Assembly (NCBI GenBank): GCA_020722945.1
Contig: DYJV01000058.1
Span: forward strand, 1-15,111
DNA: 15,111 nt
Reading direction: 5' to 3'
Source: Candidatus Methylomirabilis sp.
GTDB taxonomy: Bacteria > DYJV01
The notes below the pieces were generated by a model. That model did no database searches. It was given only the letters and a program-made list of their open reading frames with translations, and was not told where the DNA came from. The stretch's first letter is position 1. Every line of letters starts with the position of its first letter. Positions 5,109 through 12,368 of the stretch are shown here, in pieces. A program made the position numbers and the translations under genes.

Positions 5109-6431
5109 TTAAATATTAAATTCCAAAATAAATGTTGTCCCACCATTATCAGCAGGTGAAACATTTATCTTACCATCAAGCTGATAAACAGCTTTTGCAA
5201 CAAATGTGAGTCCCAATCCAGAACCCTCCCTCTTTGTTGTATAAAAAGGTTCAAATATCTTTTCACAATCTTCAATCTTAATCCCTTTACCATCGTCAGT
5301 TAGATCTATTTTGAAAATTGAGTTGTAATTTCTGGCAGTAATCTTGATAGTTTGTGAATCTGCTTCAACAGAATTTTTGATTAGATTTTCAAGTATATGT
5401 GACAATACCTCTGCATCTGTATTTACATTAAAATCATCTGCATCAACCTGAAAATTTATGTTGTTAAAGTTAATTTTTGATTTATCTACTATTTTATCCA
5501 ATAAAATTTTTATATTCTCCTCTTTTAGAGTCACATTTACATTTTTTGACATTGATAAAAATCCTCTGACAAGTTTATCAATTCTCACAACCTCCTCCTC
5601 AATATAACTTATCATCTCCCTTTTTACTTTTGGCTCAATGGTATCTTTTTTTAAGATATCAATGGCACCCTTTATGATACCGAGAGGATTTTTTATCTCA
5701 TGAGCTATTGTGAGTGAAAACTTTCCTATCTCTGCAAGTGACTTCTGCTGAACAATTTTCTGGTAATTCTCCTTTAACCGATGGAGCATTGATGTATAAA
5801 CATTGTATATATCCTCAATTTCAGGAGCCATAATATTTTTCTGTTTTTTAATAAAAGCTAACAATTTATCCTCATTTTCAAGATTTTCCCGCCAAAAAAG
5901 GAGAGGATTAATAAATGTTTTATTCAATACCATATAAGCAAATAAAAAAGCAGTAATCATAATCACAAAAGAGATAAAAATAGAGAGTAATAAAATTTTA
6001 AGCATAAGATTTTTTATATTCTCTCTGGTATAAAATATCTCAACACTCCCAAAATTCTTTATTTTTTCTTCATCAAAAAAACTCTCTGTTGAAAGCTGCC
6101 TTACAACAAGTGGATAAGATTTTTTATAAGATGAAGTTCCACCAGATGAGATAATTTCTACACCCTTTTCATCATAAACTTTCACACCCACAATATCTTT
6201 ATCCTTTAATGTGGCTTCTGCTCTTTTGTATAAAATCTCTTTCCTGTTTAAAAGGAGTGCAAGCGATGCAGCTTTTGAAAATTCATTCCCAATTATATCT
6301 ATCTTTTCATGAAATTTCTCCTTAAAGAGATCAAGGAAAAGTTTGTTGTTAACAATCAAAGCAGTAACCATTGTAGTGCTCACTGATATAAAAATTATAA
6401 TCAGAAATCTTTTTTTTAAATCGAGTTTCAC
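5109..6431 (-). CDS. Membrane sensor histidine kinase
   Basis: A 440-residue two-component sensor kinase. Two membrane helices (about 8-28 and 143-170) bracket a periplasmic domain of roughly 115 residues. A linker (about 171-230) leads to the HisKA dimerisation domain with the phosphorylated H244 in the sequence IAHEIKNPLG. The HATPase domain follows with an N box around N353, a G1 box with D379, G381 and G383, an F box near 393-397 and a G2 box GSGLG (403-407). Everything needed for autophosphorylation is present. Translation begins at GTG, which overlaps the stop of the upstream binding-protein gene in a GTGA four-base overlap; a GGGAG site is spaced correctly before it and no better ATG exists. 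The upstream secreted binding protein probably presents ligand to the periplasmic domain, and the downstream NtrC-type regulator should receive the phosphate. Confidence 0.93.
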   Translation of the reverse strand: MKLDLKKRFLIIIFISVSTTMVTALIVNNKLFLDLFKEKFHEKIDIIGNEFSKAASLALLLNRKEILYKRAEATLKDKDIVGVKVYDEKGVEIISSGGTSSYKKSYPLVVRQLSTESFFDEEKIKNFGSVEIFYTRENIKNLMLKILLLSIFISFVIMITAFLFAYMVLNKTFINPLLFWRENLENEDKLLAFIKKQKNIMAPEIEDIYNVYTSMLHRLKENYQKIVQQKSLAEIGKFSLTIAHEIKNPLGIIKGAIDILKKDTIEPKVKREMISYIEEEVVRIDKLVRGFLSMSKNVNVTLKEENIKILLDKIVDKSKINFNNINFQVDADDFNVNTDAEVLSHILENLIKNSVEADSQTIKITARNYNSIFKIDLTDDGKGIKIEDCEKIFEPFYTTKREGSGLGLTFVAKAVYQLDGKINVSPADNGGTTFILEFNI

Positions 6432-7237
6432 TTCTTCTCCCTGTTTACAAAATCAAATGGTGATGAGAAAATATGAGTTTCTGTATAACCTTTTACTATT
6501 TTAAACAAAAGGTCGCTTATTTTCTTGTAATCTACAATTACAGAGTAATATGCACCACCCTCAAGAAAGTAGTTATTAAATCCTATAACTTTTACCTGAT
6601 TGAGTGTTGCTTGCTCTATTATGTAATCTATAATCTCTTTTGATGAGTAAATTTTGTCAGGGAGAACCCACAGATATTTGTATTTATGCGTTTTAATTGC
6701 ACTTACAAGAGAATCAATATTATGAATTTTTTCAACTTTTATATTCAGATCTTGATATTTTTCTGAAATATCATTACCTTTAAGAAGAAAGTCTGTTGTG
6801 TTGGAATCTGAATAGGGTGCATAAATTTTATTGATACCCTTTTTCCTGAAAAATTGGGCAAGCTGGTGATACTCAGGGTAGAGAAAAATAGTGTAACTAT
6901 TATTGTCAGATATAAAGAGTTCAGCTTCATTGATATATATTGAAAAAGTAAATATCTTTTTTTGAGGGAGTTTCATATCCTTTACAAGATAGTTTGCCTT
7001 GCTGCCAGAAGCAACAACCACATTGCAGGAGTTAAAATCATCCTTTTTGATTTTGCTATCATCTAAATTTAAAATTCTACTTTTTATATCTGAATGTTCT
7101 TTGAAGGTATTGACCATCTCCATATAAGGTCTGATACTTTTACTCAAAAGAAAACAAATTTCTTGAGCATATAAATTGGGAAAATAGAGATGTGAAAAAA
7201 GAAATAGTATGATTAGAAGCCTATTTAATTTCAACAA
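6428..7237 (-). CDS. Secreted substrate-binding protein of the ABC_sub_bind type, no transporter partner
   Basis: A 269-residue protein with a type I signal peptide (hydrophobic 6-20, likely cleavage after A24 in LYAQ), so it should act in the periplasm. The remainder has the alternating strand and helix pattern of a two-lobed periplasmic binding fold. The C-terminal run GGAYYSVIVDYKKISDL resembles the region of ABC_sub_bind family proteins (PF04392) where a small-residue/aromatic stretch precedes a helix. No permease or ATPase gene lies nearby. It sits directly before a histidine kinase with a four-base overlap, which suggests a ligand-sensing rather than transport role. The start appears to be TTG inside the end of the upstream gene (17-base overlap), with an AAAGGA site about 8 bases before it; a second TTG lies one codon earlier and no ATG gives the full signal peptide. 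Family assignment is from memory of motifs and moderately sure. Confidence 0.72.
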   Translation of the reverse strand: MLKLNRLLIILFLFSHLYFPNLYAQEICFLLSKSIRPYMEMVNTFKEHSDIKSRILNLDDSKIKKDDFNSCNVVVASGSKANYLVKDMKLPQKKIFTFSIYINEAELFISDNNSYTIFLYPEYHQLAQFFRKKGINKIYAPYSDSNTTDFLLKGNDISEKYQDLNIKVEKIHNIDSLVSAIKTHKYKYLWVLPDKIYSSKEIIDYIIEQATLNQVKVIGFNNYFLEGGAYYSVIVDYKKISDLLFKIVKGYTETHIFSSPFDFVNREKK

Positions 7238-10097
7238 TCCTTTCCTTTATTTGTTCACGTTTTTTTACAACATAACTGTAAGTTGAGTCGAGCTGCTCCT
7301 GCCTTTTAGCCGCATCTTTTGAACTTGTGGGGATAGTGTATATCAAAATATCTTTTGGTGCTAAGAGAAACTGATCCTTAGCAATTAATACACCCCTTGT
7401 AATAAAATCCCAATCTTCAAGAAATTCTATACTCTCATCAAACTCCCCAATCTCATCGGCAAACTCCTTCTCTATGATAAAAGAGCCCATTGGAATATAA
7501 TTCATAATCATAATTTTATCTTTATCAAACTCAGTCATATGAGAGTGTGATAAAACTCCATCTATTTTGTTATCAGTTTTGAACTTCATTGAACCACCGT
7601 AAACAAATTTTTTGCCATCTTTTAGAGCGTAATTAATCAAAGTTTCAACTGCATCTCCAAATATTACATCATCGTCATCGAGAAACATTATAAATTTACC
7701 ACTGCACTCACTTTTACCAATATTTAAAGCCCTTGTCCGACCATAATCTGTCTTTAATAGTTTAATATCGATAAATGGTTTAAATTGAGCAACCACATCT
7801 TCTGCTTCATTACTTTTATCCTCTATGACCAAAATTTCTATACTCTTGTATGTCTGATTCAATATTGAGATAAGTGTTCTTTTTAGAAGCTCTCCACGTT
7901 TGTGAGTCCTAACTATCACTGATACCATAGGGTCATTAGTGGAATTGGGAGATTTATCGGATCTGACATCATGTCCTCTCCTCCTTAATACTTCGTATCC
8001 AAAACCTGTATCAGGAAATGTGGGTAATTTGGTTAAACTCTCAATTTTATTTGAGCAGCCCTTTAAATATGCCAAAAAACATTTATAAATCAACTCAATC
8101 GCTTCAATTTTGTTAGATTTTGAAAAAGCAAGCCACAACACATTATAGATATTGATACTATTTCGGTATTTACCTCTGATGTAACAATTTGATATAGGAC
8201 CAAAATTTTTTAATGAATCCCTATGGCCAAGATCATCGTGAAAAATCTTTGCAAGTGGCAAATATAAAACTCTCTTATTTTTTATTTTGATCCTCCAAGA
8301 TAAATCAACATCCTCAGCATAAAGAAAGATGTTTTCGTCAAACCCTTTAATTTGAAAAAAATCATCACTCTTTATAAGGAAAAAACATCCCGACACCCAG
8401 CACGGCTCAAGTGTAACAGGACTATATAACTTCGGATGCTCATATGGGATATGCCTTGCTTCAACAACTCCCAAATCTTTTATCTTTAAAAAAGGTTGCA
8501 CCATATACCCAATTGTATCAGGAAAAAGTAGAGCATCAGGATTCATAATAAGAAAATGTGTCCCAGATGAATTTTGTGCGGCTTGATTAATTCCAGCTCC
8601 AAACCCTCTATTATCAGAAGATTTGAGAAGATTAAGATTTATTCCACTCTTCTCAAAGTCAGCTCTGAAACCTTCAATGAGAGAAATAGTTGTATCAGAG
8701 GAGTTATTATCAACAATAGTCAACTCAAATGGTTTGACTATACTTTTTAAGATTGAATTAAGTGTTTCACCTAAGAATTGAGCTGAATTGTATGTGACCA
8801 TCAAGATAGATATTTTGATATCTTGATAATTTGATAACCCCACAAAAGTTCGTAAGTTCCCAGATAAAATTATATCCTCATCTGATGGAATAGTGAGATT
8901 AAAAGGGACATTATCTTGAGCAGATTGTTTTATTTTACTCTCTATCTTACTCTTTAAAATATGAATATTCCCTGTTACAATATAATGCTTCAATTTTTTT
9001 ATTGAGCCTGTTAGCAGGCGTAACGGCAAAGTAACTCTCCAAGAGAATGATGAGTGAATATGCTTTACCAAACCTCTGTAATAGTTGTCTAATGCTGTTT
9101 TCTCTTTATTGGCATTAATCAAATCTTTTAGAGCTTCTTCCAACTTGCTCTGTAAAATATTATTATAATCAATTAATTGATTATATCTACTCTCAAGAAA
9201 ATCTTTAGACTCTTTAAGGGTAGTAATGTGATTATTTAAATTACTGATATTGTTCTGGTAATCGACTTTTATCTGTGAAATCAGCTCTTTAAGTGATTGT
9301 ATTTCAAAATTTTTATTTAGAATATCTTTTAAAAAATCTTCATCCACCTTATTTAACTTAAAATTAGAACCTTTTAAAAGAGAGTAGCAGTAAGATATAA
9401 AATCTATCTCCAAAAAATTTTCAGAGGGGATATGCCAAAATGGTTCAGCATAAAAATCACTCTCAGAATCAGAAATAGTAAAAGATCTAAATTTATCACG
9501 TGCTTTAAATATCTCGTTATATTTTATCCGAGCCACTTGAGATTTATACTCTGACATAGCAAGAAATTTCTTATCTGCAACCTTGCTGATATCTACCAAT
9601 ACATTGACAGGAAAAAGATTGTAAGTCTCATAAAACCAGAGATCGACTTTAAACTCTTTGATACAATCGATAAAAAACCATGTTGTAACTCTATGGTCAG
9701 GGTGATAATCAAAAAGTGATGGGATAAATATATTGAGAGGGTAGTTAACTTGAAGAGTTTTGAATACATTTAAAAAATATTTTTTAAATTTACTTTTATT
9801 GTCATACACAGCTCTATCAGGTATTTCCATGAAAAATATATTGTCTTTATTGACACCAAGAATATTTAGAGCTTTTTCTGCCTCACCTCTTCTAATATCT
9901 TTATCACCAAACATCTCCCCAAGCGTAACAAATAAAACTTTTACAGGGATTTTAGACTCCCGTGCAAGAGCAATTGTCCCACCCATTGCGAATGTTTCAT
10001 CATCAGGGTGAGGTGCAAGAATAAGCCATTGACCTGAGGGAAGATTATCTTTTTTGTAGACTTTGGGGAAAATATCTCTTTCAGATAGAAAATCCAT
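7221..10097 (-). CDS. PIG-L deacetylase / coiled coil / double family 2 glycosyltransferase fusion
   Basis: A 958-residue multidomain cytoplasmic protein. Residues about 22-225 form a PIG-L (LmbE-like) zinc deacetylase with the PHPDDE motif (29-34) and HPDH (132-135), enzymes that remove acetyl groups from N-acetylglucosamine-type sugars. A predicted coiled coil (about 262-345) and the linker phrase SWRVTLPLR (352-360), common in large glycosyltransferases, follow. The first GT-A domain (about 427-690) has VDNNSSD (462-468), the metal-binding equivalent NPDA (519-522), and an AEDVDLSWR acceptor motif (594-602), like rhamnosyltransferases. The second (about 725-925) starts VSVIVRTHKRG, has DDDD (807-810) and EDWD (894-897). 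Both look catalytically intact. The likely job is building a surface glycan: O-antigen, capsule or protein glycan. The ATG has a GGAG site. It is the first gene of the leftward operon and overlaps the next by 17 bases. There is no signal peptide or membrane segment. Confidence 0.88.
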   Translation of the reverse strand: MDFLSERDIFPKVYKKDNLPSGQWLILAPHPDDETFAMGGTIALARESKIPVKVLFVTLGEMFGDKDIRRGEAEKALNILGVNKDNIFFMEIPDRAVYDNKSKFKKYFLNVFKTLQVNYPLNIFIPSLFDYHPDHRVTTWFFIDCIKEFKVDLWFYETYNLFPVNVLVDISKVADKKFLAMSEYKSQVARIKYNEIFKARDKFRSFTISDSESDFYAEPFWHIPSENFLEIDFISYCYSLLKGSNFKLNKVDEDFLKDILNKNFEIQSLKELISQIKVDYQNNISNLNNHITTLKESKDFLESRYNQLIDYNNILQSKLEEALKDLINANKEKTALDNYYRGLVKHIHSSFSWRVTLPLRLLTGSIKKLKHYIVTGNIHILKSKIESKIKQSAQDNVPFNLTIPSDEDIILSGNLRTFVGLSNYQDIKISILMVTYNSAQFLGETLNSILKSIVKPFELTIVDNNSSDTTISLIEGFRADFEKSGINLNLLKSSDNRGFGAGINQAAQNSSGTHFLIMNPDALLFPDTIGYMVQPFLKIKDLGVVEARHIPYEHPKLYSPVTLEPCWVSGCFFLIKSDDFFQIKGFDENIFLYAEDVDLSWRIKIKNKRVLYLPLAKIFHDDLGHRDSLKNFGPISNCYIRGKYRNSINIYNVLWLAFSKSNKIEAIELIYKCFLAYLKGCSNKIESLTKLPTFPDTGFGYEVLRRRGHDVRSDKSPNSTNDPMVSVIVRTHKRGELLKRTLISILNQTYKSIEILVIEDKSNEAEDVVAQFKPFIDIKLLKTDYGRTRALNIGKSECSGKFIMFLDDDDVIFGDAVETLINYALKDGKKFVYGGSMKFKTDNKIDGVLSHSHMTEFDKDKIMIMNYIPMGSFIIEKEFADEIGEFDESIEFLEDWDFITRGVLIAKDQFLLAPKDILIYTIPTSSKDAAKRQEQLDSTYSYVVKKREQIKERIVEIK

Positions 10098-10152
10098 TAC
10101 TTCTCCATAAAAATATTTTTAAATAACTATTTATAAAGTAAATATGACAGAT

Positions 10153-10181
10153 ATTAAACTATATTTTTTCTGAAATGTAAA
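10153..10181 (-). promoter_or_regulatory. Candidate sigma-70 promoter for the leftward glycosyltransferase/sensor/receptor operon
   Basis: On the minus strand TTTACA (10176-10181) and TTTAAT (10153-10158) are separated by 17 bases, each matching 5 of 6 consensus bases. Transcription would begin near 10146 and give a leader of about 50 bases before the ATG at 10097. The sequence is very AT-rich, so chance matches are likely; position and spacing are the main support. All five downstream genes could be served by it. Confidence 0.45.
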
Positions 10182-10223
10182 GTAAAACTCTATATTTTGT
10201 GATAAAAAAAACTAAGTATTTAT

Positions 10224-10253
10224 TTGACATTGAATTTTTTATCTGTTAATTAT
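10224..10253 (+). promoter_or_regulatory. Candidate sigma-70 promoter for panBCD
   Basis: A perfect -35 TTGACA (10224-10229) is followed after 18 bases by AATTAT (10248-10253), 4 of 6 to the -10 consensus; TAATTA at a 17-base spacing is poorer. Transcription would start around 10259-10262, right at the foot of the leader stem-loop, so the RNA would begin with that structure. The exact -10 is uncertain. Confidence 0.5.
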
Positions 10254-10258
10254 TCTTA

Positions 10259-10286
10259 TTCGCTTGGATCTTACGACCGAGACGAG
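10259..10286 (+). ncRNA. pan-motif-like leader stem-loop with two bulged adenosines
   Basis: The RNA can fold into a single hairpin. The base pairs 10259-10262 with 10283-10286, then 10263-10267 (CUUGG) with 10277-10281 (CCGAG), then 10269-10270 with 10275-10276, closing the four-base loop UUAC. This leaves exactly two unpaired adenosines in the stem: A10268 on the 5' side and A10282 on the 3' side. From memory, the pan RNA motif is a stem-loop with two highly conserved bulged adenosines found upstream of panB, panC or panD, which is exactly this position. The function of pan RNAs is unproven but they are thought to regulate pantothenate synthesis. I cannot compare with the covariance model, and a fold this small can occur by chance; the genomic position is the strongest support. 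A tandem second copy, seen in some examples, is not evident here. Confidence 0.55.
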
Positions 10287-10317
10287 GCTTATAACAATTT
10301 TTGTTTAAAATACATAG

Positions 10318-10342
10318 CCTTCCGTTTTGGAAGGTTTTTTTT
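10318..10342 (+). terminator. Intrinsic terminator in the panB leader (attenuator)
   Basis: A perfect six-pair stem CCTTCC (10318-10323) and GGAAGG (10329-10334) closes the loop GTTTT and is followed at once by eight T residues (10335-10342). It points in the direction of panB and ends one base before the GGGTGA ribosome site (10343-10348). No gene lies between the panB promoter and this terminator, so its role is most simply attenuation of panBCD transcription. An alternative pairing of 10284-10289 with 10316-10321 would consume four bases of its 5' arm and act as an antiterminator. Confidence 0.82.
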
Positions 10343-10351
10343 GGGTGACTA

Positions 10352-11137
10352 ATGAAAATTACAGTTTCTTCACTTAAAGAGAAAAAGTTATCAAAAGATA
10401 AGATAACTATGCTTACTGCTTACGATTTTGCTTACTCTCAGATAATTGATAGTTGCGGGATTGACATTATACTTGTCGGGGATTCTTTAGGGATGGTTTT
10501 TTGTGGCTATGAAAACACTCTCCCCGTAACTCTTGATCAGATGATATACCATACTAAAGCAGTCGTTAATGGCCGCACAAATTCTCTTGTTGTCATAGAT
10601 CTCCCTTTTCTCACTTATCATGTTTCAATTGAGCGTTCGATAGAAAATGCCGGAAGAGCCATAAAAGAGAGTGGTGCAGAGATAGTAAAGCTCGAAGGTG
10701 GGGTCACTATGGCAAAAACAATCAAAGCTATTGTTGATGCCTCTATCCCTGTAATGGGTCATATTGGACTTACTCCCCAATCGATTCATCAGATGGGTGG
10801 TTTCAAGGTCCAGAAAGAGAGGGATAAGTTACTCTCAGATGCAAAAGCAGTTGAAGATGCTGGTGCATCTGCAATAGTATTAGAGTGCATCCCTGAATCA
10901 ATTGCCAAAGAGATTACAGACTCTCTTACTATTCCTACAATAGGGATAGGAGCTGGTAAATATTGTGATGGACAAGTGCTGGTTATCAATGACCTTATCG
11001 GAGTTTTTGACAGATTTACACCTAAATTTGTCAAAAAATACACCAACATCAAAGCCAATATCCAAAATGCAGTCAACGATTACATAAACGAAGTTAAATC
11101 AGGAAAATTTCCTGATGATCAACATACATTTAAATAG
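10352..11137 (+). CDS. panB: 3-methyl-2-oxobutanoate hydroxymethyltransferase (ketopantoate hydroxymethyltransferase)
   Basis: A 261-residue enzyme, full family length, that transfers a one-carbon unit from 5,10-methylenetetrahydrofolate to 2-oxoisovalerate to make ketopantoate, the first committed step of pantothenate synthesis. The magnesium ligands expected from E. coli PanB are present as D44 (in VGDSLGMV), D83 (in VIDLPF) and E115 (in KLEGG), and the catalytic glutamate is E178 in VLECIP. The signature GHIGLTPQS (136-144) is intact. The fold is a TIM barrel acting in the cytoplasm. The ATG has a GGGTGA site four bases upstream that directly follows the U tract of the leader terminator, so expression depends on read-through. 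The next gene, panC, starts 18 bases downstream behind a strong GGGGAGG site. The ketopantoate reductase gene panE is not in the window. Confidence 0.97.
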
Positions 11138-11155
11138 TAGTTATGGGGAGGTTTA

Positions 11156-12022
11156 ATGCAAATATTCAATAATCCTCAAGAGCTTCAGCAATACGTTTTA
11201 TCCCAAAAAAGAAAAGGTCAGCTCTTCTCACTTGTTCCTACAATGGGGTTTTTACACAAGGGACATATCTCCCTTATGCATCAAGCTAAAGTATACGCTA
11301 ATAATGTAATTGTGAGTATCTTCGTAAATCCTACCCAGTTTGCACCTAATGAAGACCTCGACAAATATCCGAGAGATTTTGAAGGGGATGAAAAAAAGTG
11401 TAAAGATGCCGGAGTTGACATTATTTTTTACCCTTCAAATGAAAGTATCTACCCTGCTGACTACCAAACTTTTGTAAATGTTGAAAAAGTTTCCCAAAAT
11501 TTATGTGGAGCATCAAGACCTCATCACTTTCAAGGTGTTACTACAGTTGTAGCCAAATTATTCAATATTTGTCTCCCTGATTATGCTTTCTTTGGTGAAA
11601 AAGATTTTCAACAGCTTACAGTCATCAAAAGAATGACTAAAGACCTTAATTTCCCAATTGAGATTATCCCTGTCCCAACATTTAGAGAAGATGATGGACT
11701 TGCAATGAGCTCAAGGAACAAATATCTTAAAGGTAAAGAGCGAGAAGATGCTTTGGTGCTCTACAAATCAATAAAAAGAGTATCCGAGTTATTTAGCAGA
11801 GGTGAAAGAAATGTTTCTCTTTTGCTATCTGAAGCCCAAAAAATTATAAGCTCTACCCCTTTAGCCTATATCGACTACATTAAAATTGTCGATATAGAAA
11901 CTATGAATGATGTAGACTTTATAACAAAAGACTCTCTCTTTGCATTAGCAGTAAAGATAGGGTCAACAAGACTTATAGACAACTGTAAATTATTGTTAAC
12001 TAAAGGAGAAAAAGATGTATAG
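11156..12022 (+). CDS. panC: Pantothenate synthetase (pantoate--beta-alanine ligase)
   Basis: A 288-residue ATP-dependent ligase that joins pantoate and beta-alanine through a pantoyl-adenylate intermediate, the last step of pantothenate synthesis. It has the nucleotidyl-transferase signature HKGH (34-37) within [10 protein letters not shown], the conserved VNPTQF (58-63), GEKD (147-150) with downstream QQL, and the SSRN loop (185-188) that binds ATP. The length is normal and no key residue is missing. It is in the middle of the operon: its last eight bases overlap the start of panD, whose ribosome site AAAGGAG lies within panC, so the two are likely translationally coupled. Such coupling makes sense because PanD supplies the beta-alanine that PanC uses. 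Confidence 0.97.
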
Positions 12023-12368
12023 AACAATGATAAAATCAAAAATCCACAGAGCTACTGTGACAGGTGCTGATTTGCAATATGAAGGTAGTATCACTATTGA
12101 TAAAGACTTATTAGATGCATCCAATATTGCCCCTTACGAGCAGGTTCATATCTACAATATCAACAACGGTGTTCGTTTTGAAACATATGTAATAGAGGGA
12201 AGAAGGGGTTCTGGTGAGATATGTCTCAATGGTGCTGCTGCAAGGTGTGTTCAGAAAGGGGATCTTGTAATCATAGTTTCTTATGTTATGCTACCTGAGG
12301 AGAAGGTTGTAGGCTACAAACCAACCTACGTTTTTGTTGATGGTCAAAATACCCAGATAAACAAATAG
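12015..12368 (+). CDS. panD: Aspartate 1-decarboxylase proenzyme
   Basis: A 117-residue pyruvoyl-dependent enzyme that makes beta-alanine from aspartate for PanC. The proenzyme cleaves itself between G24 and S25 in the YEGS motif, turning S25 into the pyruvoyl cofactor. The catalytic and structural residues R54, Y58 and N72 (in LNGAAAR) are in the expected positions. The start was chosen because the N-terminus [12 protein letters not shown] aligns with the usual family start and puts the cleavage serine at residue 25; a well-spaced AAAGGAG supports it. It overlaps panC by eight bases and is the last pan gene. No intrinsic terminator is visible after it. Bacterial PanD may need a separate maturation factor such as PanM or PanZ, but none is seen here. 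Confidence 0.97.

Follow-up and report, generated by a model that had tools for sequence, protein, structure and literature searches.

The pan motif (Rfam RF01749) was first described in 2010 by Weinberg et al., whose main text (PMC2864571) presents a stem with two conserved bulged A residues and the conserved sequence GGAUC...GACCGRGAC, and names as targets only panB, panC and aspartate decarboxylase (panD) operons in three phyla. According to the same source, most pan elements, not all, occur in tandem, hence a second stem is not required (PMC2864571). Terminators, antiterminators and transporter, CoaX or CoaBC targets are absent from that main text. RNA-seq studies of Bacillus methanolicus and Paenibacillus riograndensis located pan in the 5' UTR of panB operons but gave no mechanism, and in the literature searched we found no report of a terminator mechanism, effector or ligand for pan, which is weak evidence of absence. 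Two other kinds of regulatory RNA resemble the working mode that we predict for pan. In the PyrR-binding attenuators of pyr operons, a small stabilised hairpin, the anti-antiterminator, permits the terminator to form when the end product is plentiful; the pan hairpin would likewise serve as an anti-antiterminator, but its sequence is unrelated and we know of no protein for pan. In strand-invasion terminating riboswitches, the sensor helix is invaded by the terminator arm as it is transcribed, unless the sensor is bound. The terminator arm is predicted to invade the pan stem in a similar manner, whereas the pan sensor is a single short stem whose ligand and direct binding are putative.

The stretch of DNA analysed here (15,111 nucleotides, hereafter the window) carries a pan element on its forward strand, 64 nt upstream of the operon panBCD (10352–12368), which has the gene order panB-panC-panD: panB, ketopantoate hydroxymethyltransferase (10352–11137; PF02548, E 5.4e-113), panC, pantoate-beta-alanine ligase (11156–12022; PF02569, E 1.5e-104) and panD, aspartate decarboxylase (12015–12368; PF02261, E 1e-51). 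The pan hairpin (10259–10286) has the 5' strand UUCGCUUGG-A-UC, the loop UUAC and the 3' strand GACCGAG-A-CGAG, and it folds at -10.0 kcal/mol compared with -4.8 for shuffles (z -2.7). Both the sequence and the fold place exactly two bulged adenosines, A10268 and A10282, where an earlier note on this DNA had seen them. The promoter claimed in that note is partly upheld: TTGACA (10224–10229) and AATTAT (10248–10253) are present with a spacing of 18 nt, but promoter-type sites in the region are no more numerous than by chance (2 against 1.9), so that this probable promoter has comparative support only, from promoter-like sites that end 6–19 nt 5' of the pan stem in 16 of 114 leaders, several of them unrelated, compared with 3% in shuffles. 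An intrinsic terminator, AGCCUUCC-GUUUU-GGAAGGUU followed by a U-tract, occupies 10316–10342, slightly wider than the 10318–10342 first proposed; its stem covers 10316–10336, the U-tract runs to 10342, and in shuffled versions of the region the expected number of terminators is 0.0. As the note had stated, the panB ribosome site follows at once, probably GGGUGA (10343–10348) as read from the sequence.

The gene that precedes the leader (7221–10097) is divergent, on the opposite strand, and therefore the terminator acts on transcripts of the panB leader only; its assignment to an upstream gene is ruled out. The protein encoded by this neighbour has 958 residues and combines a PIG-L deacetylase domain with two stretches of glycosyltransferase family 2. 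Another reverse-strand gene (6428–7237) encodes a 269-residue protein without a Pfam match and adjoins genes for a histidine kinase, a sigma-54 response regulator and a TonB-dependent receptor.

The window differs from the pan motif as presented in the main text of PMC2864571 in having one stem instead of the commoner two and in scoring below the Rfam cut-off. RF01749 is a two-stem model of 92 positions, and a search with it, named in the earlier note as a check, does report the window (25.7 bits in the leader, 27.3 bits in the genome-wide search), but only below the gathering cut-off of 36.2, which is a detection threshold and not a trait. This cut-off assumes two stems, and 13 of 18 further loci with pan stems also fall below it. 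In this leader the two-stem model forces its first stem onto the promoter, and we rejected that placement (10213–10240), which runs into the -35 box and does not have the two bulges. We found no second stem of the two-bulge layout in 10098–10258. Matches to rseX and other Rfam families in the leader were also set aside, being far under their cut-offs and largely driven by the terminator. A one-stem covariance model, for which ten pan stems from other genomes were used and the window was left out, scored the window at 25.9 bits (E 1.2e-5) as its sole match in the 2.5 Mb genome. Positions 10259–10286 are a one-stem member of the pan family. The coaX gene of the same genome (G000:C4:3484–4242, L231) lies on a separate contig and has no pan element, the genome having one pan match.

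The 3' strand of the pan hairpin has an alternative partner. In the minimum-energy fold of the antiterminator, CCGAGACGAGGCU (10277–10289), which is most of the pan 3' strand plus its tail, pairs with AGCCU(UC)CGUUUUGG (10316–10330), composed of the terminator 5' arm, the loop and the first two bases of the 3' arm. The helix has 13 pairs, 10277–10284 with 10323–10330 and then 10285–10289 with 10316–10320, with two unpaired bases between. The six-base pairing of GAGGCU (10284–10289) with AGCCUU (10316–10321) reported in the earlier note exists and is only one end of this helix; the overlap that it described, with the lower hairpin and four bases of the terminator arm, is real but too narrow, since the antiterminator takes nearly the whole pan 3' strand together with the terminator 5' arm and loop. 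The duplex (-16.7 kcal/mol) is more stable than its dinucleotide-shuffled controls, whether the terminator side is shuffled (z -2.2, p 0.02) or the hairpin side (z -3.4, 0 of 200 as good). The pan hairpin and the antiterminator are mutually exclusive, and folding thus bears out the competition between hairpin formation and antitermination proposed before. The window holds two traits of a transcription attenuator, an intrinsic terminator between stem and gene and an alternative, mutually exclusive antiterminator.

Equilibrium folding of growing transcripts, all starting at 10258, gave the pan stem alone up to 10316. From 10320 the tail AGGCU pairs with the nascent arm and the pan core stays intact, and both are allowed together for 3' ends between 10320 and 10328. 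With RNA free to 10330, the pan stem is open and the antiterminator has a probability of 0.90, and from 10334 the terminator is closed and the pan stem restored, with a probability of about 0.9 or above. Because polymerase covers roughly the last 9–12 nt of a transcript, this turning point falls when polymerase is on the U-tract. In the full-length leader, pan stem plus terminator (-23.2 kcal/mol) are favoured over the antiterminator (-19.4) by about 4 kcal/mol, and the 'on' state would therefore depend on kinetics and timing or on an effector.

The version of the one-stem model that includes the window matched 55 of 386 genomes sampled across bacteria, and a scan for the pattern CGCYTGGATC..GACCGRGACG gave at least 120 stretches, a collection biased by this pattern. 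At least 157 distinct pan stems were obtained, and 130 of those listed have same-strand coenzyme A pathway genes behind them. The other 27 of the 157 were regarded as chance pattern matches and excluded from all tests; four of them have less than 170 nt behind the stem, and in several a chance coding match is likely (Streptomyces, Rhizobium). Record titles of the pathway-gene leaders, which carry the depositors' own taxon labels and often belong to MAGs, add Nitrospinota, Acidobacteria, Binatia, Spirochaete (Treponema) and Dormiibacterota to the three phyla of the 2010 main text. The window does couple a pan stem, matched by the one-stem model, to a terminator (10316–10342), but the view that such wiring would be a special case does not stand, since 97 of the 130 pan leaders of pathway genes among the matches listed have a terminator before the gene. 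In an earlier set, a simple detection rule found terminators in 86 of 114 leaders against 8 of 114 shuffles. By comparison, panB leaders without pan have a terminator within 130 nt in only 2 of 19 cases, or 1 of 18 when L029, whose genome has a weak pan match at that place, is counted as pan; with L029 so counted, 9 of 11 panB leaders with pan have one. Among the matches listed, 33 of the 130 leaders lack a detected terminator, and in most of these the pairing is not clear. In six such leaders (L089, L123, L128, L132, L150 and L151) the pan stem lies within about 20 nt of the start codon, in L089, L123 and L132 immediately at it, and direct translation control is possible judging from position.

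Most pan leaders in our sample have one stem. Tandem stems are nevertheless real, as a second upstream stem with the same two-bulge layout and another sequence occurs in 20 of 114 leaders and in none of the shuffles. Such a stem, AGCCAUCGACC..GGCGGUGAGCU, recurs about 50–60 nt upstream of the pan stem in Chloroflexota-type leaders (L124, L134, L147, L173 and L188), and Bacillota-type leaders (L099, L185) have another version.

The match between the pan 3' strand and the terminator was analysed by permuting partners among 94 leaders, and the true pairs average -15.99 kcal/mol compared with -14.32 for permuted partners (z -6.7, p<=5e-5). The variable pan tail alone also matches its own terminator (z -3.4). 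For the invariant core alone the permutation is not significant (z -0.8), because the core hardly varies, and for the same kind of reason, both halves being conserved, the terminator of the window pairs about equally well with many other pan 3' strands and its own partner ranks 57th of 94. Stretches located just upstream of pan pair far worse with the terminator (-8.0 versus -16.1). Several lineages show matched changes: an unusual pan tail is met by an equally unusual terminator in L185 (ACGAGACGC and GCGCAUUUCGU), in L072 (GACAGAGG and CCUUCUGUC) and in L208 (ACGCAAU and AUUGCGU), and L217 likewise has a changed tail with a matching changed terminator. Within the pan stem, covariation is seen at the two pairs not fixed by the search pattern (Fisher p 7e-6; permutation p<5e-5). 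The covariation in homologous leaders that the earlier note had named as a check is thus present; it comes from distant relatives only, since the one other genome of the window's order that was compared gave no panB match. The structures, their mutual exclusion, their recurrence and their covariation are all computed.

Analysis of the genes behind the 130 stems among the matches listed showed that the first gene is PanB in 76, a DUF2520 reductase in 29, PanC in 10, an ECF transporter ATPase in eight, an S58 peptidase in four and PanF, PanS or a BioY-like ECF component in one each. The transporter, CoaX and CoaBC names are supported by NCBIfam or Pfam; the PanF and PanS queries, each cut at 320 residues, gave strong matches that fall short of NCBI's cut-offs. 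Nearly all of the 29 operons that begin with DUF2520 have panD, panB or panC behind it. This Rossmann protein, first for example in L134, L162, L185, L208 and L193, is presumably an alternative ketopantoate reductase (cf. Francisella PanG). Several pan-led ECF operons run on with EcfT, a substrate component and CoaX, and two of them with CoaBC; pan lies upstream of an ECF operon with substrate component and CoaX in L095, L096, L106, L127, L175 and L180, and the operons of L095 and L127 also contain CoaBC and an S58 peptidase. In L091, L155, L166 and L170 an S58-family peptidase comes first, followed by panD, DUF2520 or panB/panC. Enzymes related to S58 peptidases release N-terminal beta-alanine, and therefore these peptidases may supply it. 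One pan-like stem (L104) lies 186 nt upstream of a 6-phospho-3-hexuloisomerase (HxlB) gene and may be due to chance. Besides synthesis, the regulon covers import by ECF, PanF or PanS and the later steps CoaX and CoaBC. This range beyond panB, panC and panD narrows the signal to the status of pantothenate or coenzyme A, acting in feedback, and a regulon so composed would suit control by the end product.

We consider it most likely that the leader is a transcription attenuator of panBCD in which an effector-stabilised pan hairpin switches the operon off. The direction of control, the effector and the operation in cells are what we infer, as follows. RNA polymerase would start just before the pan stem, which would fold first. 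The emerging 5' arm of the terminator (AGCCU...) would then pair with the free tail AGGCU behind the pan stem and from there invade the stem base by base, which the complementarity of arm and loop to the pan 3' strand makes possible. A pan stem that nothing holds together would give way to the 13-pair antiterminator, and transcription would run on into panB. A pan stem stabilised by an effector, one that signals enough pantothenate or coenzyme A, would halt the invasion, so that the terminator would close and the operon would be off. A stem held closed prevents the antiterminator and lets the terminator win, so that the bound state would be the off state and the signal would mean 'enough'.

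The layout was called riboswitch-like in the earlier note, and a protein effector would fit it as well as direct metabolite binding. That the effector is an RNA-binding protein gripping the two bulged A residues and responsive to pantothenate or coenzyme A, in the manner of PyrR, has in our opinion close to an even chance. At about 28 nt the pan stem is short, its conservation is high, and the upstream two-bulge stems of other sequence in 20 of 114 leaders look as if the layout itself were recognised. A dimeric protein-binding motif was in fact proposed from the simple stem and the frequent tandems (main text of PMC2864571), but a dimer is not needed, because many leaders, that of the window included, have a single stem. 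Moreover, the many phyla that carry the motif would require an equally widespread protein, and the few operons read gene by gene contain no gene for an RNA-binding protein. A true riboswitch, in which the pan stem directly binds coenzyme A, a precursor or pantothenate, is a serious candidate that we rate somewhat short of an even prospect: the span of the regulon from synthesis and import to CoaX and CoaBC is expected of an end-product sensor, and the same stem is joined to expression platforms that differ between lineages, mostly terminators and in some cases a stem right at the start codon, but a single short two-bulge stem would be an unusually small aptamer and the literature searched gave no pan ligand.

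Folding also permits the pan core and the short pairing 10285–10289/10316–10320 together for 3' ends from 10320 to 10328, so that the sign of control could be reversed, a stabilised pan stem aiding antitermination and turning the operon on. This is unlikely, given that in most leaders the pairing extends far along the pan 3' strand, frequently as far as base one, and the stem must open, and that the short pairing alone would not outlast completion of the terminator. The full-length energies, which favour the terminator, would further suit a constitutive leader that only sets a low expression of panBCD, with the complementarity as a by-product of conserved sequence; the permutation result (z -6.7), the lineage-specific matched changes and the near absence of terminators from panB leaders without pan make this very improbable. 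An attenuator switched off by a stabilised pan stem is thus the reading that we retain, and comparison of the leaders indicates that its mechanism most likely applies to much of the pan family.

Three things are new relative to the main text of PMC2864571 and the literature searched: the antiterminator, the standing of one-stem pan elements as a common type, and targets that include transporters, CoaX and CoaBC. The comparison supplies the motif with a mechanism, a terminator-coupled switch whose competing structures share the pan 3' strand, backed by compensatory evidence, and the one-stem leader of the window, at about 90 nt, is small enough for direct probing and transcription tests. Across bacterial groups the pan arrangement is probably a feedback switch. 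According to reviews, coenzyme A has no known riboswitch and is conspicuously missing from the list of riboswitch ligands (PMC9971707, PMC10043782). We put forward only tentatively, and with some doubt, that in many bacterial groups the pan stem is a direct sensor of coenzyme A or a late precursor and exerts its control mainly by strand invasion at a terminator; if the pan stem does sense coenzyme A, it would be the missing RNA sensor that these reviews name.
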